Below are positions 35,823 through 52,547 of a stretch of DNA of 64,000 nucleotides, piece by piece. Source of the stretch: Thermoanaerobacter wiegelii Rt8.B1 (GTDB taxonomy: Bacteria; Bacillota; Thermoanaerobacteria; Thermoanaerobacterales; Thermoanaerobacteraceae). The stretch lies in contig NC_015958.1 of the NCBI RefSeq assembly GCF_000147695.2, positions 1,976,001 through 2,040,000 on the forward strand. The letters are read 5' to 3'. Within the stretch, counting starts at the first letter, position 1. Each line of letters opens with the position of its first letter. Both the position numbers and the translations under genes were made by a program. The notes below the pieces were generated by a model. It saw only the letters and a program-made list of their open reading frames with translations, had not been told where the DNA came from and searched no databases.

Positions 35823-36021
35823 TTAACCCCCGAAATTATTACTTTATAATTTTATTATACAATTTTACATATTATTTCGGAAGGGCTTTTAATAAGTTTA
35901 ATGTAGATTAACATTTTTAGTGTTATAAAAATTTTGTAATAAAATTTAAAAATAATTCCCTTGCACAAAAAGTTTATTCACAGTAAAATATCTTCAAAAA
36001 ACGAATGGGGGAATACGGTTT

Positions 36022-37646: not shown

Positions 37647-37656
37647 GGTTTAAAAT

Positions 37657-37679
37657 TGGGAGGCTTATATTGCCTCCCA
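37657..37679. terminator. Convergent terminator between oppA and the activase gene
   Basis: TGGGAGGC (37657-37664) pairs with GCCTCCCA (37672-37679), loop TTATATT, followed by TTAATTAA. It sits between the stops of two converging genes. Confidence 0.75.
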
Positions 37680-37683
37680 TTAA

Positions 37684-38667
37684 TTAACTAGCTGTATTTG
37701 CATGGACTTTCTTGCTAGTGCTGTTAGACCATCTGCCGCACTTATCTCCCCATCTTGAAATTACCTCATCTCCTTGTATGAACTCTACGACTTCGCATCG
37801 ATTTGGGCAAGCAGTACACTCAAAACCTACCGCTCTATATTTAAAGTCACTTACTTCAAAGCCTTTAAAGGAAGTATATCCTTTTTCTTTTACTGCTTCT
37901 TTTGCCAATATTGCTGCCCCGATGGCTCCCATTACTCCGTAATGTTCAGGCACATATACTTTCATCCCTAATGCCTTTTCAAATGCTGCTTTTATTCCCT
38001 TATTAGCAGCAACACCGCCTTGAAACACTATTGGCTCTTTTATTTCTTTACCCTTCCCTACATTATTTAGATAATTTCTAACAAGGGCATCACACAAGCC
38101 ACTTATTATGTCAGCAAGAGCATATCCCATCTGCTGCTTATGAATCATGTCAGATTCCGCAAAAACACTACATCTACCCGCAATTCTGACGGGACTTTTA
38201 GATTGCAAAGCTATGTCTCCAAACTGTTCGATGGGAATATTTAGCCGGTATGCTTGCTGGTCAAGAAAAGAACCGGTACCTGCTGCACAGACTGTATTCA
38301 TTGCAAAATCTACTACTACCCCATCTCTTAAAATTATGATCTTTGAGTCCTGTCCTCCTATTTCAATTACCGTTCTGACATCCTTTATTACATTGGAAGC
38401 TGCCACAGCATGAGCAGTAATTTCATTTTTGACAATGTCTGCCCCTACCATTAAGCCAGTCAATTGCCTCGCACTCCCTGTGGTACCTACTCCTTTAATA
38501 ACCATATCTCCTATTTTATTTTTTATCTCACGAAGAGCATTTTGAACTGCTTTAATAGGTTGGCCCTGTGTCCTTATGTAAACAGAAGCTATTACTCTAT
38601 TATTCTCATCAATTACTGCAATATTAGTACTAACAGAACCTACGTCTATCCCCATGTAACCTTTCAT
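37684..38667 (-). CDS. 2-hydroxyacyl-CoA dehydratase activase-like ATPase (BadF/BadG family)
   Basis: About 328 residues. ASKHA-type ATPase: YMGIDVGSVSTNIAVIDE (phosphate 1), EIGGQDSKIIIL (phosphate 2), VCAAGTGSFLDQQAYRL and IAGRCSVFAESDM with the two Cys that hold the subunit-bridging 4Fe-4S cluster, and EPIVFQGGVAANKGIKAAFE (adenosine). Activases fire single electrons into 2-hydroxyacyl-CoA dehydratase or benzoyl-CoA-reductase type enzymes. The C-terminus carries an extra cysteine cluster, CTACPNRCEVV and WGDKCGRW, which resembles the junction region of the long activase-dehydratase fusion proteins, but no dehydratase part follows. Start ATG at 38667 behind AGGAGGT; an upstream ATG in frame lacks a site. 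Confidence 0.85.
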   Translation of the reverse strand: MKGYMGIDVGSVSTNIAVIDENNRVIASVYIRTQGQPIKAVQNALREIKNKIGDMVIKGVGTTGSARQLTGLMVGADIVKNEITAHAVAASNVIKDVRTVIEIGGQDSKIIILRDGVVVDFAMNTVCAAGTGSFLDQQAYRLNIPIEQFGDIALQSKSPVRIAGRCSVFAESDMIHKQQMGYALADIISGLCDALVRNYLNNVGKGKEIKEPIVFQGGVAANKGIKAAFEKALGMKVYVPEHYGVMGAIGAAILAKEAVKEKGYTSFKGFEVSDFKYRAVGFECTACPNRCEVVEFIQGDEVISRWGDKCGRWSNSTSKKVHANTAS

Positions 38668-38801
38668 ATCTAACCTCCTAAAATCGTTCATTTATTTTAC
38701 ATTTTTGCCTTCAAAATCATTTTTTATACTCTTTCAATTAACGAATAAATTGCATTAATAAGCAAAAACTACATTCAGAATAAAAGTGGGGGCGAGAAAT
38801 T

Positions 38802-40334
38802 ATGAAAAAGAATCTGCACATTATTATTTTGGCGCTTTCTATCTTTATAAATATGCTTTTTACTTACATTTTTATCTCAGAAGTAAAACCAAATCTAAAT
38901 CTCAACCTTTCTTTTGTCTTGACAGCAGCAGTAATTGTTGTGACCTACCTACTATTTAAAAATAAATTTTCGGAGCTTATGCCTGTAAACTACAACAATA
39001 TCACTGAAGCAAAGGAAGATACCAGTCATCGAAAAACCAATATCACTTTTAAGGATGTGGCAGGATTAGATGAAGTAATCGATGAATTAAAAGTTATAAT
39101 CGACTTTATGACAAATACAGAAAAGTACAACAAAATGGGAGCAAAAGTCCCCAAGGGTATATTATTTTACGGGCCACCAGGTACAGGAAAAACTCTTTTG
39201 GCTACGGCATTAGCTGGTGAAACCAATTCTACTTTTATAAGTGCTTCCGGTTCAGAATTTGTAGAGAAATATGTAGGTGTAGGTGCAAGTCGCATAAGAG
39301 CTCTTTTCGCAAAAGCAAAAAAAAGCGCTCCCAGTATTATTTTTATAGATGAGATAGATGCTGTGGGAACAAAGAGAAACACCGATAACAACTCAGAAAA
39401 AGATCAAACTTTAAACCAACTATTGGTAGAAATGGATGGTTTTAATAGCAACGAAGGGATTATAGTCATAGGAGCAACTAATAGAATTGACATGCTAGAC
39501 GAAGCCTTACTAAGACCTGGAAGATTTGATAGAACTATACACATTGGAGCACCTAATATGAAAGCAAGGTTGGAAATATTAAAGGTACATACTCGCAATA
39601 AACCCCTTGACGAAACTGTATCTTTAAGTGAATTAGCGCGAAAAACTCACGGTATGACAGGAGCACATCTGGCTACTATGTGCAACGAAGCAGCAATACT
39701 GGCTGTAATGAAAAACAAAAGTAAAATTGGAAAGGAAGAGTTTGAAGAAGCATTAGAACGCGTAATCGCAGGCCTTAAAAAGAAAAATCCTTCTGTAGTA
39801 GAAAAAGAACGAACTATTGCTGCGTACCACGAAGCAGGTCACGCTCTTATTGGAAAAATTTTAAACGTAAATACTATAGAAAAAATTTCAATCGTTCCTC
39901 GAGGTGAAGCATTAGGATATGTATTAAACTTTCCAAAAGAAGATGCCTTTTTATTGACAAAAACAGAGTTGAAAAATAAAATAACCATGCTTTTAGGGGG
40001 TAGAGCTTCTGAGGAAATAATATTCAATGAAATTTCAACAGGAGCCGAAAATGACTTAAAAGAAGCTACAAAAATTGCTTATCAGATGGTTTGCAATTAT
40101 GGAATGAGTGAATTGGGAAACAGGGTTATTGACCTTCATATGTTAAAATCTACAGAAATTGTCGATAAAGAAATTGACAAAATTATAAATAGCTGTTATA
40201 CGCTTGCAAAAAAAATATTGCTGGAAAATAAAAATAAAGTTATTGCAATAGCCGAAAAGCTTTTAGAAAAGGAGTCAATTACAAAAGAAGAATTACAAAC
40301 ATTATGGGAAGAAGAAAATACTTTATGCGTATGA
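38802..40334 (+). CDS. Short FtsH-type membrane AAA+ metalloprotease
   Basis: 510 residues. Two close membrane helices (about 4-25 and 35-53) with only about ten residues between them, so the usual extracytoplasmic domain of FtsH is absent. AAA module: [15 protein letters not shown], Walker [16 protein letters not shown] (about 128), pore loop [10 protein letters not shown], Walker [12 protein letters not shown], second region of homology [20 protein letters not shown]. Protease: zinc motif HEAGH (about 345) and Asp in [11 protein letters not shown]. Degrades membrane and cytosolic proteins in the family. The canonical FtsH of Firmicutes is about 600-650 residues, so this is probably a second, specialised paralogue. 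GGGGGCGAG precedes the ATG. Monocistronic with a terminator. Confidence 0.88.
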
Positions 40335-40368
40335 CAAAAAAGCCTATTTAAAAACAGGCTTTTTTGTC
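40333..40368. terminator. Bidirectional terminator between ftsH-like gene and the Hsp70 operon
   Basis: GACAAAAAAGCCT (40333-40345) pairs exactly with AGGCTTTTTTGTC (40356-40368), loop 10 nt. T-runs on both strands serve both converging transcripts. The last codons and stop of the DUF1461 gene lie within the stem. Confidence 0.85.
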
Positions 40369-41048
40369 ATTTTTAGTATTCCATATACTATAGCAAGTAT
40401 AATTATAAAAGTAAAAAAAGTATTTCTGAAAATAAAAAACACTGCATCTTGAAAAAATTCTAAAGGAAACATTTGTATAAGTCTATCTGTTTCAACGTTT
40501 AACTGCCATAAATCATTGTCAAAAAATACAAGGTGAAAACCAGTAAACCAATTATCAAAATTCAAAGTCACCGCAAATGCAAAAACCAACAGTAGAATTA
40601 TTATAAATATTGTACCTTTTAAAAGATAATCGAAGGCTTTATAAAAGGATTTTGCAAAAAGAAAGTATGTAAAAATGAGTATAAAAACTATTATTGATAT
40701 ATTTCTTGTTAAAAAACCCTTTTGAAACAAATCTTTTACATCTTTCATATGAGCTAATTCTCTATCATTAAACATTCTCTGCATACTGCCATTAATTTTT
40801 GCACTTACATCTAAAGTCTCTTCTTTATCCATTAAATATCTCTGCATTATCTTGGTTATTTTCATAAGTTCATCAATATTCATGCCAGTTACTGACATTA
40901 CATTATTTTTTTCATATTCCTCTTTATAAAAATTACCGTTAAAAGCCACATATTGCAAACTAGTAAGAAAAACAGCCAAAAACAGTGAAACCACCATGCC
41001 ACTAATAAGAAAGGTATCAATAATTTTCCTCACCATTTTAAATAACAT
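40344..41048 (-). CDS. DUF1461 / TIGR01906-family integral membrane protein
   Basis: About 235 residues. N-terminal membrane helix (about 8-30 IIDTFLISGMVVSLFLAVFL), an external-looking segment of about 90 residues (NVMSVTGMNIDELMKITKIM, RYLMDKEETLDVSAK, RMFNDRELAHMKDVKDLF), then three more helices and a short basic tail. LM-x6-Y-L-x(n)-FNxRE-x2-HM-x-DV is the mark of DUF1461; function unknown. It begins 6-15 bases after the 489-residue gene, so it is the last gene of the seven-gene operon. ATG at 41048 is preceded by AAAGGTGC; a GTG 9 bases upstream is possible. DUF1461 genes also occur elsewhere, so its link to the system may be incidental. Confidence 0.8.
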   Translation of the reverse strand: MLFKMVRKIIDTFLISGMVVSLFLAVFLTSLQYVAFNGNFYKEEYEKNNVMSVTGMNIDELMKITKIMQRYLMDKEETLDVSAKINGSMQRMFNDRELAHMKDVKDLFQKGFLTRNISIIVFILIFTYFLFAKSFYKAFDYLLKGTIFIIILLLVFAFAVTLNFDNWFTGFHLVFFDNDLWQLNVETDRLIQMFPLEFFQDAVFFIFRNTFFTFIIILAIVYGILKMTKKPVFK

Positions 41049-41063
41049 CCTTTGCACCTTTTA

Positions 41064-42533
41064 TTATAGCCTCATAAAAATTTTTTTGTTTTTTAAATCC
41101 TTGTAAAGCTCTATCTTTTTCTTTACTGTATGCATAAAAGATAACTTTCTGCTCCGCGAATTATCAAGCTCAATGGAGTTTTTTATATAATGCAAGACTT
41201 CTTTTTCAAAATTCTGAGGTACAGGAATAATTCCCATAAGTCTTTTCATTCTCGCTTTTCTATACTCATTTTTCATGTTTCTTGAAATATCTTCAATTAA
41301 AGAAATGACATTTTTTATTTCGCCTTTTATCAGAGCCATATCTATAGATTCTTCCTCTATTTGAGCATCCTCAAGTACTATCTCACTAGTATCATTTAAC
41401 AAGTTTTCATACTCTGAAAGCGTTTCAATGTCTTCTAATATACCCTCATCTATAATTTCCATAATGTCCAGATCAGAATAATCAATTTCTCCTAATAGTA
41501 AATTATACCTATACAATTCAAAATACCAATTAGAAATTACATTATCACAGGTTTTGATATTTTTTTCTATTTCTTTGTAATCTAAAGAACTTTTATTTAA
41601 TTTAACATAAAAATCTATATACTCACCAATAAAAGGCTCTTTTTTAAATAAAGTTTCAAATTTATTTTCTGACAAAAATACTATCAATAGTCTATTTATA
41701 ATTTTTAAAACAGAAAAAGAAACCTCTCTTAGACTTTGAATACTTTTTATTAACTCTACACTTTTTTTAAAGTACGCGTCTACTTCTTCCCGAGTCATTT
41801 CTTTAAAATCCAGTGACTGTAAGTACTCAATTTTCTTAGCAATAATAGGGAAAAATTCGCCGTAGCCTTCTATTAATTTTCCATAAAAATTTTCCTCTAT
41901 ATCTATTACATTTTCCAAAAAAGCTTCATAATTTGGATAATCCTTCTCCAATCCCTTTGTTAAATATTCATAAAAGCGTTTTTTAGACATAGCAAAAGGA
42001 ATGCTGGATATTATTTCTTTTATCCTTTCTTCTTTTTCCTCTTCAACCTCATTTATAAAATTAATAACACTTTCGTAAAATTCTTCCTCATCTATCAATT
42101 CTTCAGAAAAGAAATCTCTTATTCTATCATTTACCACTTCGTTAACATATCTCGACTCTACGTAATATCCATATAAAACATCTATAGCATTTTCAAAGTA
42201 CTCTTTATATTTTCTAATCGTCTTTTCCGTGTTCCTTTTCATTTTTTCTTCCATAAGGCTGAAATATGTTGTATTATTTGCTATATTCTTAACAACTTCC
42301 AAAATGCTTTGTGTTTCTTTATCCAAATATACCAAAGCATTTGCCACATTCTTTTTCCTAAATAGTACATGGTATAAATACACCGTCTCATTAAAAAGCT
42401 CCAAAATACTAATTATTTGTACTATTTCTTTTTGTTTTTTTATTATTCTTTTTAACAACAGAGAAATTTCATTTGGTGTCTTCGAAGTTTTATTGAGTTG
42501 TTCCCTCAATTCTCTTACTTCATCTTGTTGCAT
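41064..42533 (-). CDS. Large helical protein of the Hsp70/beta-CASP operon, unknown
   Basis: 489 residues, no family recognised. Almost entirely alpha-helical by eye, rich in Glu, Lys, Ile and Leu, with coiled-coil-prone stretches at the N-terminus (EVRELREQLNKTSKTPNEIS, LLLKRIIKKQKEIVQIISIL) and in the middle (FINEVEEEKEERIKEIISSI). Tyrosine-rich segments (LYGYYVESRYVNEVVND) and an acidic part (SEIVLEDAQIEEESIDMALI) precede a basic C-terminus (RKLSFMHTVKKKIELYKDLK). No signal peptide or membrane helix. It follows the 136-residue coiled-coil gene after 11 bases and precedes DUF1461 by 6-15 bases. It could be a scaffold or a large GrpE/NEF-like partner, but nothing in the sequence proves this. 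Confidence 0.7.
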   Translation of the reverse strand: MQQDEVRELREQLNKTSKTPNEISLLLKRIIKKQKEIVQIISILELFNETVYLYHVLFRKKNVANALVYLDKETQSILEVVKNIANNTTYFSLMEEKMKRNTEKTIRKYKEYFENAIDVLYGYYVESRYVNEVVNDRIRDFFSEELIDEEEFYESVINFINEVEEEKEERIKEIISSIPFAMSKKRFYEYLTKGLEKDYPNYEAFLENVIDIEENFYGKLIEGYGEFFPIIAKKIEYLQSLDFKEMTREEVDAYFKKSVELIKSIQSLREVSFSVLKIINRLLIVFLSENKFETLFKKEPFIGEYIDFYVKLNKSSLDYKEIEKNIKTCDNVISNWYFELYRYNLLLGEIDYSDLDIMEIIDEGILEDIETLSEYENLLNDTSEIVLEDAQIEEESIDMALIKGEIKNVISLIEDISRNMKNEYRKARMKRLMGIIPVPQNFEKEVLHYIKNSIELDNSRSRKLSFMHTVKKKIELYKDLKNKKIFMRL

Positions 42534-42544
42534 TGTTACACCTC

Positions 42545-42955
42545 TCAGTCATTTATCTTTAACATTCGCGACAGGTCTTCTACTAAAGAATACTTTTGTT
42601 CTTCCTTAGTTACAGCCACTTGAGTTACAGTGGTGTCAAACAAAAAATTTGTTTTCTCTTCTATATTAGTCAAAATTTCTTTTATTTCAAGCAAAGCATT
42701 GTTAAAATCTACCTTTTGCTGTTGGATTTCTACTAGCAATCTATTTACTAATATTTTTAAATTTTCGGCTTGTTTTTCTTTTGATGAAGTATTTTCAATA
42801 ATCTTGTTCATTCTTTTTTCAAACTCTAATCCAATTTTTTCTATTCTCTCCTCTAATATTTCTTTTTCCTTTTCTAACTGTGAAATTTTATTTTTATAGC
42901 TTAAAATTTCTCCTTCTTGCTCTTTTATTTTTTCAGTAAGCCTTTCTATCTCCAT
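42545..42955 (-). CDS. Small coiled-coil protein (GrpE-like in size and shape)
   Basis: 136 residues. Residues 1-55 are a continuous heptad coiled coil (IERLTEKIKEQEGEILSYKN, ISQLEKEKEILEERIEKIGL), and residues 60-105 a second helical stretch (KQAENLKILVNRLLVEIQQQ, NNALLEIKEILTNIEEKTNF). Size and long N-terminal coiled coil recall GrpE, the nucleotide exchange factor of Hsp70, but the beta-domain of GrpE is not apparent, so I do not call it GrpE. The ATG shares a base with the upstream stop (TAATG), which implies translational coupling with the 179-residue gene. Confidence 0.65.
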   Translation of the reverse strand: MEIERLTEKIKEQEGEILSYKNKISQLEKEKEILEERIEKIGLEFEKRMNKIIENTSSKEKQAENLKILVNRLLVEIQQQKVDFNNALLEIKEILTNIEEKTNFLFDTTVTQVAVTKEEQKYSLVEDLSRMLKIND

Positions 42956-43494
42956 TATATTCTTTTTTCCTGCAGAATCAATTTTTCCTGTAATTTTTCA
43001 ATCTCTTTCAATAGTTTTTTGTTGATTTTTACTGTTTTATCGATAGTCTCTTGCTCATCAATATTTTTTTCTATTTTTTCTTTTTCCCCCTCAATTAAAT
43101 CTATTAAGTCCTCCAATATTTTTTTATAACTTTCACCTTTTGAAAATAAAAGTACAGAGAAAATAACTTCTGGCTTATAAAAATTCAAAAGTTCTGGTAC
43201 CTTCTCCTCTATTTTTTCAAAAGCCAAAGGCTGTATCCGCCTCACCAAATCTGCATAATTTTTTTCCCATTCTTTTATAAAGACTTCTCCATCTATATTC
43301 CCTTTCAAAATCTCTTCTCTGAGAATTGGAATTATCTTTTTAGGTGGAGAAGCACTCTCTATTAATCGAAAACCAGCCAACTTTTTTTGTAAATTAGTAT
43401 TTTTTTTGAAAGGTTTTATAAGCACATCATAGGGAAGAGTAGATAAAAAAATATCTATATACTTCTTTTCTGTCACATTTTTAAATTCCAACAT
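42955..43494 (-). CDS. Helical protein with C-terminal coiled coil, unknown
   Basis: 179 residues, not recognised. N-terminal globular part of about 115 residues (EFKNVTEKKYIDIFLSTLPY, KKLAGFRLIESASPPKKIIP) and a C-terminal coiled coil of about 60 residues (LIDLIEGEKEKIEKNIDEQE, LLKEIEKLQEKLILQEKRI). The coiled coil could pair with that of the next gene product, whose start codon overlaps this stop. Starts 12 bases after the HEAT-repeat gene. No membrane segment. Confidence 0.65.
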   Translation of the reverse strand: MLEFKNVTEKKYIDIFLSTLPYDVLIKPFKKNTNLQKKLAGFRLIESASPPKKIIPILREEILKGNIDGEVFIKEWEKNYADLVRRIQPLAFEKIEEKVPELLNFYKPEVIFSVLLFSKGESYKKILEDLIDLIEGEKEKIEKNIDEQETIDKTVKINKKLLKEIEKLQEKLILQEKRI

Positions 43495-43506
43495 ATTTTC
43501 ACCTTC

Positions 43507-45084
43507 TCACATTTTAATGAGCTTGTCTGTTTTTTTATAGTTCTCTTCAACGATTTTTTGTGCTAAATACCTAATCCTAGCACTATTGCTTTCCATTGCA
43601 TCACTAAATATTTTTTCATCAATTATATTTTTTAATCCTTTCGCATTTTTGCCTAAAATTTTATAAATCAAATACTGTATTTCTTCCTTTGCAGTGTTTT
43701 TTAATTTTTGTATTAATTCTTGTGCTATTTCCTCGTCGAGATTTGTTTCTATTATTTTTAAAGCGTTTATACAAGCATAACCATCATCATTTTTAATAAT
43801 ATACTTTATCCCTTCCGCAATTTGCCTATTTATGTCACTGTTCCTAAGCCCCTTCAATCTTTTAATTTCTTTTATTGCATTTAATAATTCCTCTACAGAA
43901 AAACCTGGTTTTACAATATAATAGAATAAATTACTTAGATATTTTATCTCTCCCAACTGAACCAAAGCCGAATAAGCATTAATAGCCAAATAATTATTTT
44001 CTAAAAACTGTTTTATCATAGGTTTTGCTTCTAATATTCGCAAATTTGCTAAAGAAGTAATAGCACAAGCCTTTAACTCTAACGATTGATTTTCTTCTTT
44101 CAAAATTTCCAACATTATATTTGCACATCTTTCATCTTTCGTATACCCTAACCCAATTACTATATTCATTTTGTTTTCTACGCTAGGATCATAATAAGCC
44201 TTAAGTAAATACTCTGTAGCAATGCTCGTCCTCATTTTCCCTAATGTTATCGCAGCTTTTTGACTATATCTCTCCTCATATAGCAACTCTGCAATATTTT
44301 CAACTGCCTTTTCCTTTAGATTCGCTATAACATTAGAATATACAATATTCAAGCTGCTATTTTCATTGTCCAAATATTTTTCTATTATCTGCTTTACTGC
44401 CTCATCTCCTAGCACAGTAAGCTTTGTTAAAATTCTAAAAGCAAAATTTCTTTCTCTGCTATTAAATCCATTAAGAGAATTAACCATATTCAATATATGA
44501 GGAATGCATTTTTTCTCTCCCAATTCTATAAGAGTTTCTGCTGCTATTTCCTTTAAATTATCATTTTCTAAAAGTGTAATTAATTGCTCATAAGCCCTTA
44601 TTTCTTTTATTTCTCTAAGCGTTTGAATGACAAGTTTAATTTGTTCTTCCCATTCCCATTCTTGCAAAATAGTGATAAGAGCATTGCGGGCCTCTAAGCT
44701 GTTATTTGATATATTTTTGAGAATTCTCACCATTCTTTTAAAAATTTCCTCTTGTCTTAAATCCAAAGCTTTTGCACTATATACTATCATCTCAATTGGA
44801 TTTTGCCCCTCTGATAAAATATTTCTCCCTAATTCAACAATGTCTTTTTCTAAAGAAGCTAGTGCAGATTGGTGAAGAGTAGATAGCAATTGAATTTTTT
44901 CTCCAATAAGTTTTGCATTAGTTTCGCTAATATAATATTTAAATAGTTCTCTTTTAAAGTTTTTATCTTTATCCTTCATCCTTTTTGCTCCCAAATATTC
45001 CATTCCATCATCCATCACCTCTTTAGAAACATTTATAAAAAAATCTTTATTCTCCAAAAGCAACTCCTTCCAGTCAATGCTCAT
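43507..45084 (-). CDS. HEAT-repeat protein of the Hsp70/beta-CASP operon
   Basis: About 525 residues of alpha-alpha repeats. Typical HEAT units include IREIKEIRAYEQLITLLEND, LKEIAAETLIELGEKKCIPH, AVENIAELLYEERYSQKAAI, YDPSVENKMNIVIGLGYTKD and LELKACAITSLANLRILEAK. Such solenoids bind partner proteins. The ATG at 45084 (MSIDWKELLLEN) is chosen because GAGGAG lies 9 bases before it; it overlaps the Hsp70 gene's stop by 11 bases, so the two are translationally coupled. A start 21 bases further upstream is in frame but has no ribosome site. In context it is a candidate adaptor between the Hsp70-like ATPase and its substrate or the nuclease. Confidence 0.8.
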   Translation of the reverse strand: MSIDWKELLLENKDFFINVSKEVMDDGMEYLGAKRMKDKDKNFKRELFKYYISETNAKLIGEKIQLLSTLHQSALASLEKDIVELGRNILSEGQNPIEMIVYSAKALDLRQEEIFKRMVRILKNISNNSLEARNALITILQEWEWEEQIKLVIQTLREIKEIRAYEQLITLLENDNLKEIAAETLIELGEKKCIPHILNMVNSLNGFNSRERNFAFRILTKLTVLGDEAVKQIIEKYLDNENSSLNIVYSNVIANLKEKAVENIAELLYEERYSQKAAITLGKMRTSIATEYLLKAYYDPSVENKMNIVIGLGYTKDERCANIMLEILKEENQSLELKACAITSLANLRILEAKPMIKQFLENNYLAINAYSALVQLGEIKYLSNLFYYIVKPGFSVEELLNAIKEIKRLKGLRNSDINRQIAEGIKYIIKNDDGYACINALKIIETNLDEEIAQELIQKLKNTAKEEIQYLIYKILGKNAKGLKNIIDEKIFSDAMESNSARIRYLAQKIVEENYKKTDKLIKM

Positions 45085-46654
45085 AGTTTTCACTCTCCTC
45101 GCCAATAGCCACTTGAACTCTTTGCTCTGTAGAAGCTACTACCCATGCGCTCAAAGTCAAAATTCTATTTCTATCAAAACTTATTTTTAGAGAAATAGGC
45201 GTGCCGGGTTTTATTAACTTTGAAAAATTTAATTGGACGCTTTTTAAACGCTTCATCTTTGGATCCCATAAATTTTTCCCTGAAAATACATCCAAACGCA
45301 TACCCGTAGCATTAGTTACTCTTAAAATCTTGTCATACTCTCTTTCATAAGGTGCTTTTGTACCTTGTGAAACAATCAAAAAAGGTAACCCATTCTTTAT
45401 ATCAATGTATATGTTGGAAGCCAGAACAGGCTCAATTTTGATATTGTTATTTCCTTTATTCAGTTTTTCGCTTAAATAGTGGTAAATTGCTGCTCCCCGC
45501 GCAACCGAAAACATAGGATGTAAACTTATTAAAGCTTTTTTCATAAATAATTTCTCTATGACATTTCGCACAGGCCTATAATTGCTCATGCCTCCTGTCA
45601 AAAGTACATCATCTATATCTTGAATCATAAGCCCCGCTTTTTCCAAAGTATCTAAAATAGGGTCTACGACATTATATCCCATGTTTCCTTCTTTAACCAA
45701 TAGAGGTCTTATACACTCCTCATATTCCTTATTAGATATTTTAAACTTATAAGGTTTCCCTTTTATAAAATTTTCTACAATATTTTCATATATTACTTCT
45801 TCTCCCACTGAAATACTAAAAAATTTTCTTGCCTTTTCCATCTCGCAAACCAATCTATTATATACATGCCTTTTTTCATTTTCACTATCAAATAAATCCC
45901 CCATTTCCTTCGAACATTTTTCTAAAAGATAAATACTGCCCATTAAATCAAAATTTATTCCTCCTACTAGAGTATGAGAAGAAATGGCTATTTCTTCTAC
46001 AATGAAGTCCTTATCCGTTATTTGTACTTCTAATATCGAGACATCACAAGTTCCTCCTCCTAAATCGAACACCAACATTTTTCTCGGCCGCGAAAAATCT
46101 AAATGTCTTTTGTTTTGTGGCAATTTCTTCTCAGTATTTATAAAATCAAGAAGTGCTGCTGTAGGCTCAGAAATAAAATAAGTATTTTGTTCATCAAATC
46201 CTGCCATTTTTGCAGCTTTTTTTGTCGCTCGAATTTGGTCGTGATTAAAAGATGCTGGCACAGTTATAACTACATTTACTACTTCTTCACCAATTTCTCT
46301 CTCCAAGCTCTGTTTAGCTTCCTTTAATATTAAAGCTGCCACTTCTTCTGGTGAAAAAAGTTTTCTATCAATTTCCCAAAAATAACCTGACGTTCCTATA
46401 TAATTTTTACTGTTATAAATAACTCTCTCCGGTTCCTTAACTTTCATAGACTGTGCTATTCTACCCACATACTGATTTCCACTTTTATCTACATATAAAC
46501 AAGAAGGCAATATTTTATCATAAATGTATTCATAGTCTTCATTAAACTGCCCAATATCTATCACTCGAGGCAGTAATTCTCCCTCTTGCGATATTTCCAA
46601 AACTGATGCAACCGTATTCGTAGTACCTAAATCTATTCCTACATATCTTTTCAT
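45074..46654 (-). CDS. Hsp70-like (DnaK-type) ATPase without lid domain
   Basis: 526 residues against about 610 for DnaK. Nucleotide-binding domain complete: YVGIDLGTTNTVASVLE (phosphate 1), VVITVPASFNHDQIRATKKA, ISEPTAALLDF, MLVFDLGGGTCDVSILEV (phosphate 2), DDVLLTGGMSNYRPVRNVIE (adenosine). From about residue 400 a beta-sandwich-like substrate domain remains (ASNIYIDIKNGLPFLIVSQG, YDKILRVTNATGMRLDVFSG), but the helical lid and the EEVD-type tail are missing. It is not the housekeeping dnaK: no grpE/dnaJ neighbours. It begins 10 bases after the beta-CASP gene and overlaps the HEAT gene. The role would be ATP-driven binding of a specific client, perhaps a partner from this operon. Confidence 0.88.
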   Translation of the reverse strand: MKRYVGIDLGTTNTVASVLEISQEGELLPRVIDIGQFNEDYEYIYDKILPSCLYVDKSGNQYVGRIAQSMKVKEPERVIYNSKNYIGTSGYFWEIDRKLFSPEEVAALILKEAKQSLEREIGEEVVNVVITVPASFNHDQIRATKKAAKMAGFDEQNTYFISEPTAALLDFINTEKKLPQNKRHLDFSRPRKMLVFDLGGGTCDVSILEVQITDKDFIVEEIAISSHTLVGGINFDLMGSIYLLEKCSKEMGDLFDSENEKRHVYNRLVCEMEKARKFFSISVGEEVIYENIVENFIKGKPYKFKISNKEYEECIRPLLVKEGNMGYNVVDPILDTLEKAGLMIQDIDDVLLTGGMSNYRPVRNVIEKLFMKKALISLHPMFSVARGAAIYHYLSEKLNKGNNNIKIEPVLASNIYIDIKNGLPFLIVSQGTKAPYEREYDKILRVTNATGMRLDVFSGKNLWDPKMKRLKSVQLNFSKLIKPGTPISLKISFDRNRILTLSAWVVASTEQRVQVAIGEESENYEH

Positions 46655-46664
46655 AAACTCCTCC

Positions 46665-48509
46665 CTATTGAAGTTCTACTATTTCTCCTTCTTCTGGTGC
46701 AAAAACTTTTATTCCTTCAATTCTTTTTAAAATTGTTTCTATATTTATTTCACTCTTACTTTCGTATCCCCTGTGAATTACAAAAACAGCAGATGGAGCC
46801 ATCTTTATAACTGTTTCTAATAGGTCTACCATATTTGCATGATTTAACATTCCAATTTGATAATTTTTTAAACCTTCAATTTCTCTATTATTAGAATCGA
46901 GATTCATAATACAGCCCTTTGAAAAATTTTTTATTTCAGAAGCATATATAAAAGATGCACTTCCCTCTTTTAAGTCATTTGAACTGGCGAGAATCACGCA
47001 ATTGCCTAGGGCTATTTCCTTTTTTATAAAATCTTTTCTATCAGTGTATAAAGTATTTTCAGCCACATTTAGTATTCCATTTCCATATATGGGCCCAGCA
47101 AAATTTTCATATAATTTACTAAAATATGCTATATCTCCATCTACATACACATTAAAAGGAATATATGAAAAAGTTTTTCTAAAAAATAATAATAGGTCTT
47201 GCCCTTTACCAATAGCATATACAGGTAAAAGTATTCTCTCTTCATCTTTTAATAGCTTTTCTATCGACTTAAGTATCAATTTATCCTGTAAATACTTATT
47301 TTGGACACCAAAGTTATTGCCGTAACCATAAGTAGCTTCAGATATTAAAATATCTACTTTTAAATCGGGAAGAAATCTAAGTCCTTTATTACTTTCCACA
47401 TCTTTTAATGTAAAATCACCTGTATAAAAAATTTTTATCCCCTCAATCTCAAGATACACAGCTACAGCGCCTAAGATATGCCCTGCAGGAAATAACTTAA
47501 GTTTTACTTCTTTATTTTTTATTCTAAAGCTTCTTTCTTCTTCTGTATCAAAACTTATAATCTGGCTGTCAAAATTTATAATCTCCTCTTCTATTTTTAT
47601 CTCTAATTTTGTATGTCCCCTCAAAAATATTTGCCTCAAAATTTCGTGAGTTGCCCTTGACATTATAATCGGAGAGTTTAAACCTTTTCTTAATAATTCT
47701 ACAATTCCCCCAAAATGGTCTAAATGAGCATGAGTAATAATTACCAAATCAATATCTTTAATATCTATAGGTAAATTTTTTATAGAATTGTAATATAAGG
47801 TTTTATCCTTAATCAAAGCTCCCGCATCTAGTAAAATATTTATTCCCTCATAGGATACCAAATAAGAGCTAGCGCCAATATTATCCCCTCCCCAACAAAA
47901 AAATTTAAAGTTATGGATGGAGTTAAAATTTTTTCTGGTTTTATGGTAATACTCATTTATTAATTTCGAATCTTCTGGAAACAAACGATAAAGTTTAAGA
48001 TTTTGTTTTTCTTCTTCACTAATAAGGCCATATTTTAATTTTAGCCGCAATATATATAAGTCCTGAGGATTTAATTTATAAGCTTTATCTAAGAATTGGT
48101 GCCTCTCACCAATCTCCTCATATATTTCAGCTATAAGTCCATATATTTTCGGCAGTAACAATTTATCTTCTACTTTTTTCTCCATATAAAGTAATTCTTC
48201 CAAAATTTCTAAAATCCTTCTTTTATTTTTAAAAGAAAGTAACAATAAATAAAATTTTATCCATTGGTCTTCCCCGCTATAATTCATTAATGCTTCAAAA
48301 AGATTTTTTGTTTTTAAAGATTCTTCTACCAAATCTAAAAGAATAACACTTTTTATAAACAAAGCTAAATTATGCTTATCAATTTCTAATTCGCTCTTTA
48401 GCTCAAAAAAATGCTCTTTTGCTTCTTCAGGAATACCTATATAAATTTCAAGTATTATCTGCCACAACAGCAAATATTCATATAATTTTTTGTCCAATTT
48501 CTTTACCAA
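46665..48509 (-). CDS. TPR-like / MBL-fold beta-CASP nuclease-like protein
   Basis: At least 614 residues. The first 200 are helical repeats (KLYEYLLLWQIILEIYIGIP). The rest is a metallo-beta-lactamase/beta-CASP domain: CWGGDNIGASSYLV, VIITHAHLDHFGG (motif 2), LFPAGHILGAVAVYLE (motif 3 His), IFYTGDFTL (motif 4 Asp), ISEATYGYG (motif A), MLNHANMVDLL (motif B His), VFVIHRGYES (motif C His). His in motif C is the RNA-type signature (RNase J/CPSF73-like). The TTG at 48509 has no ribosome site; protein-like sequence continues upstream (YINAYWYVFQQKSLVKKLD) to a GTG at 48621 behind GGGAGGTG, if one T is removed from the T5 run (AAAAA at 48604-48608, plus strand). First gene of the operon. Confidence 0.85.
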   Translation of the reverse strand: MVKKLDKKLYEYLLLWQIILEIYIGIPEEAKEHFFELKSELEIDKHNLALFIKSVILLDLVEESLKTKNLFEALMNYSGEDQWIKFYLLLLSFKNKRRILEILEELLYMEKKVEDKLLLPKIYGLIAEIYEEIGERHQFLDKAYKLNPQDLYILRLKLKYGLISEEEKQNLKLYRLFPEDSKLINEYYHKTRKNFNSIHNFKFFCWGGDNIGASSYLVSYEGINILLDAGALIKDKTLYYNSIKNLPIDIKDIDLVIITHAHLDHFGGIVELLRKGLNSPIIMSRATHEILRQIFLRGHTKLEIKIEEEIINFDSQIISFDTEEERSFRIKNKEVKLKLFPAGHILGAVAVYLEIEGIKIFYTGDFTLKDVESNKGLRFLPDLKVDILISEATYGYGNNFGVQNKYLQDKLILKSIEKLLKDEERILLPVYAIGKGQDLLLFFRKTFSYIPFNVYVDGDIAYFSKLYENFAGPIYGNGILNVAENTLYTDRKDFIKKEIALGNCVILASSNDLKEGSASFIYASEIKNFSKGCIMNLDSNNREIEGLKNYQIGMLNHANMVDLLETVIKMAPSAVFVIHRGYESKSEINIETILKRIEGIKVFAPEEGEIVELQ

Positions 48510-48670
48510 ACTTTTTTGCTGAAAAACATACCAATAAGCATTTATATAATCCTCCTTTTCTACAAATTTTTTTATACTGTTATCGTATACATCATAAATA
48601 TTTAAAAATGACGTAACTCACCACCTCCCTATGTTTTTATTTTAATACCTTTTGAGTAAAAATTCTACAC

Positions 48671-48699
48671 AAAAAATAAGTCTGGATTTTGTCCAGACT
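48671..48699 (-). terminator. dhaKLM terminator
   Basis: On the minus strand, AGTCTGGA pairs with TCCAGACT (48679-48699 in total) across a 5-nt loop, followed by TATTTTTTG. It ends the dha transcript 10 bases after dhaM and separates it from the Hsp70/beta-CASP operon, whose start follows within 50 bases. Confidence 0.85.
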
Positions 48700-48708
48700 G
48701 AAAAACTC

Positions 48709-49101
48709 TTACAATTTATTAAGTTTTTTTGCTTCTTCTGCCACTGAAAGAACTTTATCAAAATCACTACCTATAGAAGCCTCTACACTAGCTGCAATTG
48801 CTCCCTCCACTAAAGGTGCATCAGCAATTTTTACTTTACCTTCATATTCCTCTCCCAGGAGTTCTATCGCCATTTGCGCACTCATTACAGCACTTCCAAT
48901 ATCAACTAAAACTACTACTCCTTCTCCCTCGTCTACTTTTTTAATTTCCTCCATTATCTCTGTAGCATCTGTTCCCAATCTGCCATCTTGTGTCCCGCCA
49001 GCTATCCCTATGGGAACTTTTCCACCTGTCATTTGGCTTGCAAGTTCATAAATCCCCTCTACTATTTTTCTTGAGTGAGAGACTAACACTATTCCAACCA
49101 T
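48709..49101 (-). CDS. dhaM: DhaM, PTS EIIA-type phosphotransfer subunit of dihydroxyacetone kinase
   Basis: About 130 residues, a single EIIA-Man-type domain: VGIVLVSHSRKIVEGIYELA with the phospho-accepting His in VSHS, IAGGTQDGRLGTDATEI and VVVLVDIGSAVMSAQMAIEL. It takes phosphate from HPr and passes it to DhaL-ADP. It is the short form; HPr and EI modules fused in E. coli DhaM are absent, so general HPr must supply phosphate. The ATG at 49101 is used because GGAGG stands 5 bases before it; the in-frame ATG pair at 49119 overlaps dhaL's end and lacks a site. Confidence 0.92.
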   Translation of the reverse strand: MVGIVLVSHSRKIVEGIYELASQMTGGKVPIGIAGGTQDGRLGTDATEIMEEIKKVDEGEGVVVLVDIGSAVMSAQMAIELLGEEYEGKVKIADAPLVEGAIAASVEASIGSDFDKVLSVAEEAKKLNKL

Positions 49102-49115
49102 TTTTTCCTCCACCA

Positions 49116-49754
49116 TCATGATAAATTGACAACATCAGAAAAAGACTTTATCATCAAATATGCTGATGTTGCCCCTGGATCTAAGTGTCCAATACTTCTT
49201 TCTCCTAAGTAACTTGCTCTTCCTTTTCTTGCAGAAATATTCTTAGTGTATTCCATTCCCTCTTTTGCAGCATTAGCTGCTCTATTTAATGCTTCAGGTA
49301 ATGCAATGTTGTTCTCTAAACTATCTTTTAAAGCTTTATATGCAGGTTCAATAGAATCTATCATAGTCTTGTCTCCTGCTTCGGCTTTTCCTCTTTGTTT
49401 GATGCCATCTAAAGCAGCTTCAAAGATTTTAACTATATCCTCTTCAGAAAGTTCATTTTTACCCTGAACTACTTGTCCAGCCCTCATAAAAGCTGTACCA
49501 TATAAAGGACCAGAAGCTCCTCCCACCGTAGATACAAGAGTCATGCCTATAGTTTTTAATATTGTCCCTATATCAGTAGTTTCAGGCAATGTGGTCAATT
49601 TTTGCTTTACGGCATCAAATCCTCTATCTAAATTTATTCCGTGGTCCGCATCACCAATAGCAGCATCCAACTCTGTAAGGTATTCTTTATTTTCTTTTAT
49701 AACCTCTACAATTTTGTCCACAATTTTTAGGACATCATTTTTTGTGATAACCAT
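49116..49754 (-). CDS. dhaL: DhaL, ADP-binding subunit of dihydroxyacetone kinase
   Basis: 212 residues. LDAAIGDADHGINLDRGFDA holds the Asp residues that bind the two Mg ions; GGASGPLYGTAFMRAGQVVQ and AGDKTMIDSIEPAYKAL follow; C-terminus ARKGRASYLGERSIGHLDPG ATS is the nucleotide lid. DhaL keeps ADP bound as a cofactor that is rephosphorylated by DhaM and donates phosphate to dihydroxyacetone on DhaK. It starts 18 bases after dhaK behind TAGGAGGTAG. Confidence 0.95.
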   Translation of the reverse strand: MVITKNDVLKIVDKIVEVIKENKEYLTELDAAIGDADHGINLDRGFDAVKQKLTTLPETTDIGTILKTIGMTLVSTVGGASGPLYGTAFMRAGQVVQGKNELSEEDIVKIFEAALDGIKQRGKAEAGDKTMIDSIEPAYKALKDSLENNIALPEALNRAANAAKEGMEYTKNISARKGRASYLGERSIGHLDPGATSAYLMIKSFSDVVNLS

Positions 49755-49772
49755 CTTCTACCTCCTAAAAAT

Positions 49773-50771
49773 TTATAATTGTTTGAAAGCAGGTGTATCA
49801 GCCTTTGCATCTAACAATGTTTTAAGTTCTTCATCTAATTTTAATAATGTTATAGAAAATCCACTCATTTCAAGAGAGGTCATAAATTCTCCTACGTATG
49901 TTTTGTAAACTTTGATCTTCTTACTCTCTAAGATTTCTGCTACTTTCCTGTTCGCAACATAAAGTTCCATTAAAGGAGTTGCACCAAGCCCGTTTATCAT
50001 AACAGCTACTTCGTCATTTTCTTTATAAGGCAGGTCATTTATTATTTTCTCCATTAAATGTTCTACTATTTCATCTGCAGGTTTTATTTTTTCTCTGTGA
50101 GTTCCAGGCTCTCCATGTATTCCTATACCAATCTCCATCTCATCTTCTGCAAGAGTAAAGCTGGGTTTCCCTGCTGCTGGAACAGTACAGGGTGTTAGTG
50201 CCATTCCCATTGACCTTACATTTGCAATTACTTTCTCAGCTACTCTTTTTACTTCTTGTAAGCTAGCCCCTTCTTGTGCCTTTGCACCAGCAATTTTGTG
50301 AACAAAAACAGTTCCAGCAATGCCACGCCTTCCCTGCGTCCAAGTGCTATTTTCTACTGCAACATCATCGTTCACTATCACTTCATCTACTTCTATTCCC
50401 TCCATCTGTGCCATTTCTCTAGCCATTTCAAAATTCATTACGTCACCTGTGTAATTTTTAATAATCAATAATACTCCTTTTCCTCCATCCACTGCCTTAA
50501 TCGCTTCATAAATTTGGTCAGGTGTAGGTGAAGTAAAGACAGCACCAGGGCAAGCCGCATCTAACATTCCATAGCCCACATATCCTGCATGAGCAGGCTC
50601 ATGGCCACTGCCACCACCACTTACAAGTCCAACTTTTCCTTCTACAGGTGCGTCTTTTCTGACAATTACATCTATGTTGTCAAGTTTTCTCAGGTAAGAT
50701 GGGTGAGCAGCCAATAATCCCCCTATCATTTCTTTCACGACATCATTAGGATTATTAATCAACTTTTTCAT
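49773..50771 (-). CDS. dhaK: DhaK, dihydroxyacetone-binding subunit
   Basis: 332 residues. KVGLVSGGGSGHEPAHAGYV contains the GSGHEP loop and the N-terminal active-site histidine, LLIIKNYTGDVMNFEMA follows, and IGIHGEPGTHREK supplies the His that forms the hemiaminal with dihydroxyacetone (about residue 220). VMINGLGATPLMELYVANRK is typical of the second domain. Product: dihydroxyacetone phosphate, entering glycolysis. First gene of dhaKLM, with AGGAGGAGG before the ATG and a -24/-12 promoter 40-55 bases upstream. Confidence 0.96.
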   Translation of the reverse strand: MKKLINNPNDVVKEMIGGLLAAHPSYLRKLDNIDVIVRKDAPVEGKVGLVSGGGSGHEPAHAGYVGYGMLDAACPGAVFTSPTPDQIYEAIKAVDGGKGVLLIIKNYTGDVMNFEMAREMAQMEGIEVDEVIVNDDVAVENSTWTQGRRGIAGTVFVHKIAGAKAQEGASLQEVKRVAEKVIANVRSMGMALTPCTVPAAGKPSFTLAEDEMEIGIGIHGEPGTHREKIKPADEIVEHLMEKIINDLPYKENDEVAVMINGLGATPLMELYVANRKVAEILESKKIKVYKTYVGEFMTSLEMSGFSITLLKLDEELKTLLDAKADTPAFKQL

Positions 50772-50809
50772 TGTTTACCTCCTCCTAATTTACTTTTGTT
50801 AGTTTTTAA

Positions 50810-50827
50810 ATGCAATTTATATGCCAA
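50810..50827 (-). promoter_or_regulatory. Sigma-54 (-24/-12) promoter of dhaKLM
   Basis: On the minus strand TTGGCATATAAATTGCAT: GG and GC are separated by exactly the spacing of sigma-54 promoters, and the flanks match TTGGCAC-N5-TTGCW well. It lies between the terminator of the sigma-54 activator gene and dhaK, so the activator encoded next door is the obvious partner. Confidence 0.8.
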
Positions 50828-50850
50828 ATAAATTGTAGCAAATAGGCAAT

Positions 50851-50877
50851 AAAAAAATAGCCTCAAAAGGCTATTTT
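50851..50877 (-). terminator. Terminator after the sigma-54 activator gene
   Basis: AAAATAGCC (50854-50862) pairs with GGCTATTTT (50869-50877), loop TCAAAA; on the minus strand a run of T follows. It ends the glpA-to-regulator transcript, leaving dhaKLM under its own promoter. Confidence 0.85.
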
Positions 50878-50911
50878 GGTAAAAAGTATCAACCATTCAT
50901 TTCTATTGGTA

Positions 50912-52547
50912 TTATCTATCAACAAGTCCGTATTTCCTCGCCTTTGCAGCGATAGTCTTGTGGGTAAGTCCTAAAACTTTTCCTGCTTTATTAAAGCTTT
51001 TATATCTTTGTAGTGCGGCTTTTATTATTTTGTACTCATATTCTTCCATTGTAAGTAACTCGCTATTTTCTCCAAGATAAATAATGTCATCATCTGATAT
51101 AGTGGTAGTTTCATTTCGAATATATTGGGGCAAATCTTCATAATCGATGTAATCAGTATCACTCAATGTTATACACCTTTCAATTATATTTTCTAATTCT
51201 CGTATATTCCCAGGCCAATCATAATATATCAATGCTTGCATAGCTTTTTTGGTAACCTTTTTTACATTTTTGTTTAATTTTTTGTTAAGTTTATCAATAA
51301 AATGTTCCACAAGTAGAGGAATATCTCCTCTTCTTTCCCTTAAAGGAGGTAAAATCACAGGTATAACGTTTAATCTATAGTATAAATCTTCTCTAAAAGT
51401 ACCATCTTTTATTGCTTTTTCTAAATCTTTATTTGTCGCAGCGATTATCCTCACATCTACTTTTATAGTTTTTATTCCTCCTACTCTTTCAAATTCCTTT
51501 TCTTGAATCACCCTTAAAAGCTTTACCTGAATCTCAGGTGGAATATCTCCTATTTCATCAAGAAAAATCGTTCCTCCATCGGCTAATTCAAATTTTCCTA
51601 TCTTTTGAGTTACCGCTCCAGTAAAAGCTCCCCTTTCATGTCCAAAAAGTTCACTCTCCAATAGAGTCACAGGAATAGCCGCACAATTTACCCTTATAAA
51701 TGGCTTATCCTTTCTCTTACTGGCGTAATGTATCGCATTAGCCACCAGCTCTTTTCCCGTTCCGCTTTCTCCTCTTATGAGGACTGTTGAATCAGTTTCC
51801 GCCGCTTTGGAAGCAATAGTAAGAGCGTCTTTTAATTTTCCGCTATTGCCTATTATTATGTCAAAAGCTTTGTCAAGTTTTCTATTTCTTTTCAGCTCAT
51901 TTTCCAAATATTCTATTTGAGGGAAGTCATAAAATACTATAACAGCTCCTTCTATCTTTGTACCTGTATAAATAGGTGTTATATTTGTTAACACCACATT
52001 TGTATTTATTTTTAGTTTTTTATTCATCTCTTCTTTGCCTATTTTCAAAACATCAGCAATTTTTATATCCGGTATCACTTCTTGTATTTTTTTCCCTATA
52101 GCCTGGTCCATATTAATCCCTGTAATACTTTCAGCTGCTTTGTTAAAAATCATTATTGCTCCATTGTCATCAGTAACTATAAGTCCTGAGCCAATGGAAT
52201 TAAATATTTTCTCATAGGCTATTGAGGTATTTTTTAAAAGTTCATAAGTAGTTTTTTCTTCCTTTTCTTTCCCTAACTCGTTGTAAAAAAAGCCTTTAAA
52301 CTCTTTTATAGCATTGTCCACATTGGCTCCTTCTACTACGACTTCTATTTCTTCACCGCGAGAAGCAAAAAAAAGTCGCCATTGACAGCATACTGTTAGC
52401 AGGAATCAACCTATTGTCATTTATCTTCCTTAAAAATATGCTTACATTGTTTTGTCTGCTTATGTGACTAACCTTTTGAACAATATGGGCAGCAATCTGA
52501 GAATGGATACTCACAGGAGTTCTTAATATTTCCCTTCTTCCCTCCAT
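50912..52547 (-). CDS. Sigma-54-dependent activator with N-terminal HPr-like domain (DhaR/LevR-like), frame break
   Basis: Main frame from 52321: PAS domain (SIAYEKIFNSIGSGLIVTDD, about 30-130), AAA+ domain with RGESGTGKELVANAIHYAS (Walker A), ESELFGHERGAFTGAV (the GAFTGA loop that touches sigma-54), GTIFLDEIGDIPPEIQVKLL (Walker B), and Fis-type HTH (KAGKVLGLTHKTIAAKARKY). Upstream, ATG 52547 behind GTGGTGAT opens an HPr-like domain: REILRTPVSIHSQIAAHIVQ (His kept, HPr's Arg replaced by Gln) and ANSMLSMATFF, which runs out of frame at an eight-base run (A8, 52367-52374) and resumes as ASRGEEIEVVVEGANVDNAI. One base too many in that run explains the break. Shares the glpA transcript and should activate the dhaKLM sigma-54 promoter. 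Confidence 0.82.

Follow-up and report, generated by a model that had tools for sequence, protein, structure and literature searches.

A portable gene module that joins a predicted beta-CASP RNase to a lidless Hsp70 in Thermoanaerobacter wiegelii and scattered Firmicutes, with a possible role in defence or RNA quality control

The window analysed here is the whole stretch of 64,000 nucleotides at positions 1,976,001 to 2,040,000 of contig NC_015958.1 of Thermoanaerobacter wiegelii Rt8.B1, whose genome is a single contig of 2,785,056 bases. Seven minus-strand open-reading frames (ORFs) occupy window positions 40344-48509 in the ORF listing, at the places reported in an earlier note on this DNA, which had read positions 40344-48621 as an operon of seven genes. 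We found that the module in the window consists of four genes, encoding a nuclease (A), an Hsp70 (B), a HEAT-repeat protein (C), and a coiled-coil protein (DE), just upstream of an unrelated resident pair, F-G. This set of four to five genes is portable and sporadic in Firmicutes and often lies near antiviral genes, which suggests an undescribed chaperone-controlled defence system. We give a probability of roughly one half to its being a mobile chaperone-gated RNase module for defence or RNA quality control, a function read from sequence. The features of the locus are as follows.

46665..48614, minus strand: module gene A, predicted beta-CASP metallo-nuclease of the RNA type (CPSF73/aCPSF1-like), N-terminal region helical
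45074..46654, minus strand: module gene B, Hsp70 nucleotide-binding domain (NBD) and beta substrate-binding domain (SBD-beta), no lid or tail
43507..45105, minus strand: module gene C, HEAT-repeat solenoid, start at TTG 45105 or in-frame ATG at about 45084
42545..43494, minus strand: module gene DE, helical and coiled-coil protein, split in the window by a frameshift that leaves ORFs of 179 and 136 amino acids
41064..42533, minus strand: gene F, helical protein of 489 amino acids, no family assigned; resident neighbour, possibly co-transcribed, outside the module
40344..41057, minus strand: gene G, membrane protein of the DUF1461 type (PF07314/TIGR01906); resident neighbour outside the module
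38802..40334, plus strand: short FtsH paralogue, convergent; a landmark with or without the module
48679..48699, minus strand: hairpin of terminator type lying between dhaM and A, with a stem of 8 pairs and a run of T

The boundaries of the module follow from its relatives in the window's family (genomes and loci are referred to by our own handles, G and L numbers). An ortholog of B is present in 16 of the 19 family genomes, the window genome included, and is broken in G001. The order A-B-C-D-E-F-G-FtsH is kept in 14 of the 15 fetched family loci that bear the module, the fifteenth (L020) being a 3.5-kb contig with A-B-C only. EBP-dhaK-dhaL-dhaM lies directly upstream in 12 of these 15 loci; L051 and L020 end at a contig edge, and L036 (G007) has no dha genes within the upstream 4 kb. 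The genomes without B, G003, G008, and G010, have kept the FtsH paralogue, followed by G and F, and comparison of the FtsH-G-F stretch with A, B, C, and DE gave no match in any of the three. In G003 and G008, not in G010, dhaM comes directly after F. The 230-base dhaM-F gap of G008 still holds two pieces of DE, one of 101 nucleotides at 85% (E 9e-28) and one of the last 59 nucleotides at 78% (E 1e-7), when compared to G002/G004, a scar indicating that the module was lost there by deletion. The 96-base gap of G003 gave only a 31-nucleotide A-rich match (E 2e-5). Since F and G both stay at the locus in the absence of the module genes, they are resident neighbours, and the seven-gene unit was rejected. 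The proposed machine at the membrane is likewise without support, because the membrane protein G stays behind with F when the module is absent.

One further pair of frames proved to be a single gene. DE is one open frame of 316-329 amino acids in 12 of 14 sister loci, the exceptions being G007, where it is split elsewhere, and G016, a broken draft, and in the window copy a one-base difference within a run of A causes the frameshift. The ORFs of 179 and 136 amino acids are therefore one gene, which rules out two genes at this place in the window family, including the two small coiled-coil proteins with a shared TAATG junction that the earlier note had described. With DE one gene and F outside the module, the set does not hold three coiled-coil proteins either.

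The domain assignment of A was borne out. A matches the metallo-beta-lactamase (MBL) profile PF00753 with 51 bits, and its best solved relatives in a profile search of PDB are YSH1/CPSF73, Ints11, archaeal aCPSF1 (CPSF1/FttA), Cas14, and TTHA0252; A is called RNA-type because these are proteins of the CPSF73/Ints11/aCPSF1/Cas14 kind. The HxHxDH, H, D, E, H, and H columns are invariant in all seven diverged A proteins aligned, and we take them to be the MBL metal ligands, the acid of motif A, and the histidines of motifs B and C. By these active-site columns, A is a predicted RNA-type beta-CASP nuclease. The Pfam Beta-Casp model PF10996 has no match in the window A and is matched by the homologues from the Priestia and Klebsiella records described below, and A falls far below the equivalog cut-offs (117 vs 580.2 and 109.1 vs 800 bits). 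A is therefore like CPSF73, aCPSF1, and Cas14 in its catalytic domain and active-site columns, but differs in its N-terminal region, its sub-cut-off scores, and its operon with an Hsp70. A second beta-CASP-like protein of the same genome (G000:C1:2641317-2642684) is 26% identical to A, with several stops inside the match.

The frame of A cannot be opened by GTG 48621, where the earlier unit began, since a stop is reached after nine codons. Conservation at the protein level extends upstream of the first canonical start (TTG 48509) to approximately ACG 48614, which in the window sits behind a strong ribosome-binding site at the right distance. In all six same-genus loci aligned, including the window, protein-level conservation of the frame starts before the first ATG, GTG, or TTG and goes back to an ACG, making it likely that A uses a near-cognate start, ACG 48614 being the likely codon, in the window genus. 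In the sister genus, an in-frame ATT stands at approximately the matching place in 8/8 loci; six of them have an in-frame GTG three codons before the ATT, overlapping the ribosome-binding site, and two have a stop between. In the window genus, the conserved N-terminus of A thus has no canonical start (window 48500-48630; the same place was examined in L036-L042 and L045-L050), and control of A through a near-cognate start is possible.

B is an Hsp70 by a wide score (185.9 bits against a cut-off of 20.6), and the profile is matched only to position 498 of 599, which is the basis for describing it as lidless, as the earlier note had done: the protein ends after SBD-beta and has no lid or tail. 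DnaK structures in PDB match its NBD and SBD-beta, the score against the DnaK equivalog (182.1 bits) lies below the cut-off of 822.55, and the linker region is unlike that of DnaK. Lys70 of DnaK is important for ATP hydrolysis. In an alignment of 16 B proteins, this position is Gln in the window, G002, G004, G005, and G006, Arg in G012 and G623, and Lys in the other nine. Housekeeping DnaK, GrpE, and DnaJ are also encoded in the window genome. In G050, a relative in the phylum, three further Hsp70-like proteins with frames of 503-638 amino acids were seen at C1:461763, 577863, and 1662477, besides the best DnaK-type match. The HEAT protein was also correctly named, as C carries HEAT repeats by profile match. 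The C proteins of the different groups are related: C from the family aligned by hhalign with C from the Bacilli at 99.6% and with C from G024/G195 at 96.6%, while Bacilli versus G024/G195 gave only 5.9%. Swapping of HEAT specificity in the C gene of G006 was rejected, as its DNA, though 88.5% identical, is frameshifted over its whole length.

Outside the family, A, B, and C occur together at nine loci: two relatives in the class, G024 and G028, whose modules are 95-98% identical; G195, from another part of the phylum; four Bacilli; and two plasmid records. The earlier note had left it to genome comparison whether the set is confined to one strain and whether its gene order is conserved; with these nine loci and 14 of the 15 family loci, the unit holds across genera, and the order varies. 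Genome surveys scored the best 3-6 candidates per genome, so that their counts are lower bounds, and the group names are taken from the titles of the loci used as centres. B orthologs scoring well over what DnaK proteins reach were found in at least 10 of 398 genomes of the phylum sample, seven of them from the window's own family and three from outside, G195 being the only carrier among 63 genomes of its order. The Bacilli sample gave 4/398 genomes at 522-545 bits, and a fifth match, G491 at 245 bits, was not counted. In a collection of 72,556 plasmid records, Priestia megaterium pNCT2_2 and Klebsiella grimontii-labelled pNY3A stand out among the matches listed, and with gene A as the query the same two records alone cover 80% among the matches listed. 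The Klebsiella-labelled stretch (L151, CP079755.1 162832-192570) has 34% GC, and its module resembles a Bacilli copy most closely, possibly a sign of a wrong label or a foreign origin; its Hsp70 is annotated as two ORFs.

Elsewhere the searches were negative. No module match was found in 369 genomes from the class of Oceanimonas, 231 from the phylum of a Chloroflexi metagenome-assembled genome, 226 from the class of Micromonospora, or 8 further genomes, none of these four samples holding a positive control. A contig scan with a generic Hsp70 query returned 80 loci at 27-32% identity, which read as ordinary DnaK-type Hsp70s, and scans of viral contigs found no relative. Among phage records, the matches listed (15 of 38 and 8 of 22) were DnaK-level Hsp70 or partial MBL matches. 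A beta-CASP gene on a Herpetosiphon plasmid was rejected as a further module, with no Hsp70 among 11 annotated features.

At all nine loci outside the family, A, B, and C are accompanied by a further protein of one family, CC. The order is A-CC-B-C in the four Bacilli and two plasmid records, with DE after C in three of the four Bacilli and two separate ORFs in its place in both plasmid records, and CC-B-C-A in G024, G028, and G195, where no DE was recognised. Trees built from 11 loci for A, B, and C share their main groups, and their distances correlate at 0.940 (A-B), 0.965 (A-C), and 0.952 (B-C), indicating co-inheritance; G623 is placed differently in the C tree.

The C-terminal region of CC is similar to GrpE. 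By hhalign, a set of four sequences gave 93.4% (E 2.6e-7) and a set of eight gave 80.8%, the alignment running along the coiled coil, helical part, and beta head of GrpE. The GrpE alignment held 74 sequences from tblastn hits, after dropping those that contained stops or covered fewer than 100 query residues. As controls, 40 block-shuffled GrpE alignments per query reached at most 2.0% and 1.2%, reversed GrpE reached 1.7% and 0.5%, and the best of five other families reached 2.6%. This part of CC looks like a dedicated exchange factor of the GrpE type. The earlier statement that no GrpE is recognisable therefore stands for the window locus, but elsewhere a GrpE-like protein belongs to the module. 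The guess that the helical proteins are dedicated co-chaperones is upheld for CC, present at 9/9 distant loci and GrpE-like in the eight copies tested, and not for DE and F, which had no match to GrpE by hhalign and were rejected as candidate partners. A J-protein in the set was also rejected, in line with the earlier note, as none was recognised and the HPD motif was absent from the CC, DE, and F proteins scanned; the letters HPD are found within the MBL part in three related A proteins, and once each in another A protein, a B protein, and two HEAT proteins. B is thus like the DnaK-GrpE pair in having NBD and SBD-beta and, in distant members, a GrpE-like partner, and differs from it in the missing lid and tail, the linker, and the lack of a recognised J-protein.

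Defence-type genes lie in the fetched stretches around seven of the nine loci outside the family, or six without the weakest. A CRISPR array is beside the module in G024, and a CRISPR array with Cas8b (529 bits) in G028. G195 has two BrxC/D ATPases nearby, G543 an Mrr nuclease matching PDC-S02 (451 bits), and G732 a NERD-UvrD protein (C3a187, 216 bits). Near the Priestia copy are an NsnA-like HNH protein (104 bits) and an Mrr nuclease. The weakest case is the Klebsiella-labelled copy, with an integrase, a helicase that resembles PbeA distantly (53 bits), and an HNH protein that has no match in PADLOC. In G583 a WYL regulator lies upstream of A, and the two neighbour genes scanned in G623 gave nothing of defence type. 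The earlier note proposed a role in RNA processing or stress, which is possible, but defence is preferred here because the neighbourhoods of the mobile copies point that way. Considered by themselves, two of these neighbourhoods hold further genes. In G195 (L148 624-3580), the two BrxC/D-like ATPases are in tandem and, with a protein of 260 amino acids, lie directly upstream of the module on the same strand; they match the BrxD and SngB models. In G024 (L043 13250-17901), beyond an insertion sequence-like ORF, there are an FHA and zinc ribbon protein, a PP2C phosphatase, a radical SAM protein, a ClpB-type AAA protein (AAA_2 165 bits; DolB/PDC-M37B-like), and a protein of 336 amino acids, possibly a second conflict system.

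In the window, dhaM, dhaL, and dhaK lie upstream of A (family models above cut-off), and a hairpin similar to the one between dhaM and A is visible by eye in G008. The terminator scan as a whole gave 2 sites against a shuffle mean of 2.5, showing no excess, promoter matches were likewise no commoner than in shuffles, and Rfam at the gathering threshold found no RNA in window 36000-52000. The DUF1461 identity of G is confirmed, with PF07314 and TIGR01906 matched above cut-off (TIGR01906 132.7 vs 74.8 bits), and G fails the NCBIfam equivalog for Lit, a lipoprotein transacylase (48.4 vs 400 bits). The FtsH paralogue has 510 amino acids, and two other FtsH-like genes are present in the window genome; F-G-FtsH may be a separate unit. 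Among close relatives, the median ratio of non-synonymous to synonymous substitution rates (dN/dS) is 0.18 for A, 0.13 for B, 0.26 for C, and 0.18 for DE (window DE left out), and the four module genes are under purifying selection; the values for F, G, and FtsH are 0.19, 0.32, and 0.08.

Taken as a mobile chaperone-gated RNase module, the set would probably have an anti-phage or RNA-quality-control role. C and DE, with their HEAT repeats and coiled coil, would form a platform for recognition or assembly, and B would serve as a switch governed by its ATP state, binding the nuclease or else a trigger or aberrant RNA-protein complex. Where CC is present, it would reset this switch. Release or recruitment of A would then let it cut invader RNA or the RNA of the cell under infection. 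An ATP-driven cycle of B is doubtful in the window genome, because Gln stands at the Lys70 position and a search of four family genomes, this one included, turned up no GrpE-like partner, so that the ATP-controlled machine of the earlier note is in doubt at the very locus for which it was proposed. The switch may be frozen in the window family, in keeping with RNA targeting of the kind proposed for CnuD, a protein discussed below. A bolder form of the proposal, which we put forward tentatively, is a new class of prokaryotic immunity with the Hsp70 as sole NTPase and switch, in which the Hsp70/GrpE-like pair and the HEAT protein would sense infection and unleash or aim a CPSF73-type RNase.

Several observations weigh against a mobile module with a chaperone cycle. 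The defence neighbours were chosen by eye, without a background control, and the Klebsiella-labelled case is weak. G024 and G028 are near-identical and therefore not independent. PADLOC models run on the window module proteins and five Priestia ones gave a best score of 29.3 bits. The likeness of CC to GrpE falls to 40.0% with the full-length CC profile, 62.5% with the head alone, and 73.4% in the reciprocal run; the Pfam GrpE model is silent on the four CC proteins scanned, the NCBIfam GrpE models are silent on the G028 CC and match the GrpE of the window genome strongly, and a CC profile search of PDB found chance coiled coils only. It is because these curated GrpE models fail that CC is called GrpE-like, not GrpE. 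The CC profile also found nothing in any of four family genomes, the window genome among them, with 4/4 control genomes positive. DE of the family and of the Bacilli are only weakly similar (28-58%, mostly over the coiled coil, and 10% for the N-terminal part), their putative homology rests on position and layout with a weak profile match, and the gene that follows C in G623 did not match DE. Copies are broken in the window (DE), G007 (DE), G001 (B), G006 (C), and G016 (B, C, and DE), although some of the genomes are drafts and some breaks may be assembly errors. Finally, the window family keeps the module stably, by vertical descent, at a single site next to the DhaKLM and FtsH genes, where no defence gene was noticed, a pattern that looks more like a resident function.

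That pattern is the starting point for a resident RNA-processing or stress machine, in which A would mature or decay transcripts, Hsp70 and HEAT proteins would assemble or protect A, and defence would play no part. The presence of B in 16/19 family genomes, at the same site by F, G, and FtsH in 14 long-enough loci and the window, agrees with this, as do the purifying selection with active-site columns kept and the nearest solved relatives of A, which are nucleases of mRNA 3′-end formation and termination. We nevertheless consider it unlikely, as the genes have been lost or broken in close relatives and, outside the family, are rare and scattered, with plasmid-borne copies and defence-type neighbours.

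A different arrangement is suggested by Type III CoCoNuTs (CnuD/CnuCD), the nearest described analogue, which (eLife 2024, PMC11090510) are restriction-associated and predicted to target RNA, with Hsp70 NBD/SBD, HEAT-like repeats, and coiled coils beside an RNase. The module likewise has Hsp70, HEAT, coiled coils, and RNase, but its nuclease is a beta-CASP protein, its Hsp70 and HEAT units are on separate genes, and its GrpE-like partner is found outside the window family; the likeness of B to CnuD is one of described domains. McrB GTPase, McrC, and HEPN were not recognised among the module proteins and the neighbour proteins scanned, which were part of the neighbour ORFs. By analogy with CnuD, Hsp70 and HEAT could be an RNA-targeting unit with no chaperone cycle, B binding foreign or aberrant RNA and bringing the nuclease to it. 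The CoCoNuT III theme (PMC11090510) is an RNase with HEAT-like and Hsp70 NBD/SBD units next to it, and the Gln at the Lys70 position, the linker unlike DnaK, and the missing GrpE-like partner in the window family would suit such a unit. It is rather improbable, given that Lys is kept in 9/16 aligned B proteins and that a GrpE-like partner in eight diverged loci argues for nucleotide exchange. Least probable by far is a private folding helper for nuclease and scaffold without regulation, which an Hsp70 with SBD-beta and a GrpE-like protein could serve as, but the lid and J-protein usual for Hsp70 folding work are missing (no HPD motif in the CC, DE, and F scanned) and housekeeping DnaK, GrpE, and DnaJ are already in the same genome.

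Predicted GTPase-centred conflict systems of Firmicutes and Actinobacteria (eLife 2020, PMC7159879) have a dedicated Hsp70, sometimes without a peptide-binding domain, and a GrpE. Their core is a GTPase, and no TRAFAC-clade GTPase was recognised in the module or scanned neighbours; the word 'lactamase' has 0 occurrences in the main text of PMC7159879. No description of a beta-CASP-Hsp70-HEAT operon was found in the open literature, most subscription papers and all non-PMC preprints being outside this scope, which agrees with the earlier note, whose author knew of no such system.

Even if the module is housekeeping, its Hsp70 and GrpE-like protein make a pair dedicated to a single nuclease, for which the open literature searched also gave no description. 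Since the module parallels the Hsp70 and HEAT units of CoCoNuTs without the GTPase, the role of those units would become directly testable in a simpler context. If the proposed gating is true, this would be the first defence system in which a chaperone cycle gates a beta-CASP nuclease, a chaperone-gated RNase would join the catalogue of bacterial conflict systems, and a small expressible system would be at hand for asking whether an Hsp70 can be a signalling switch, not a folding machine.

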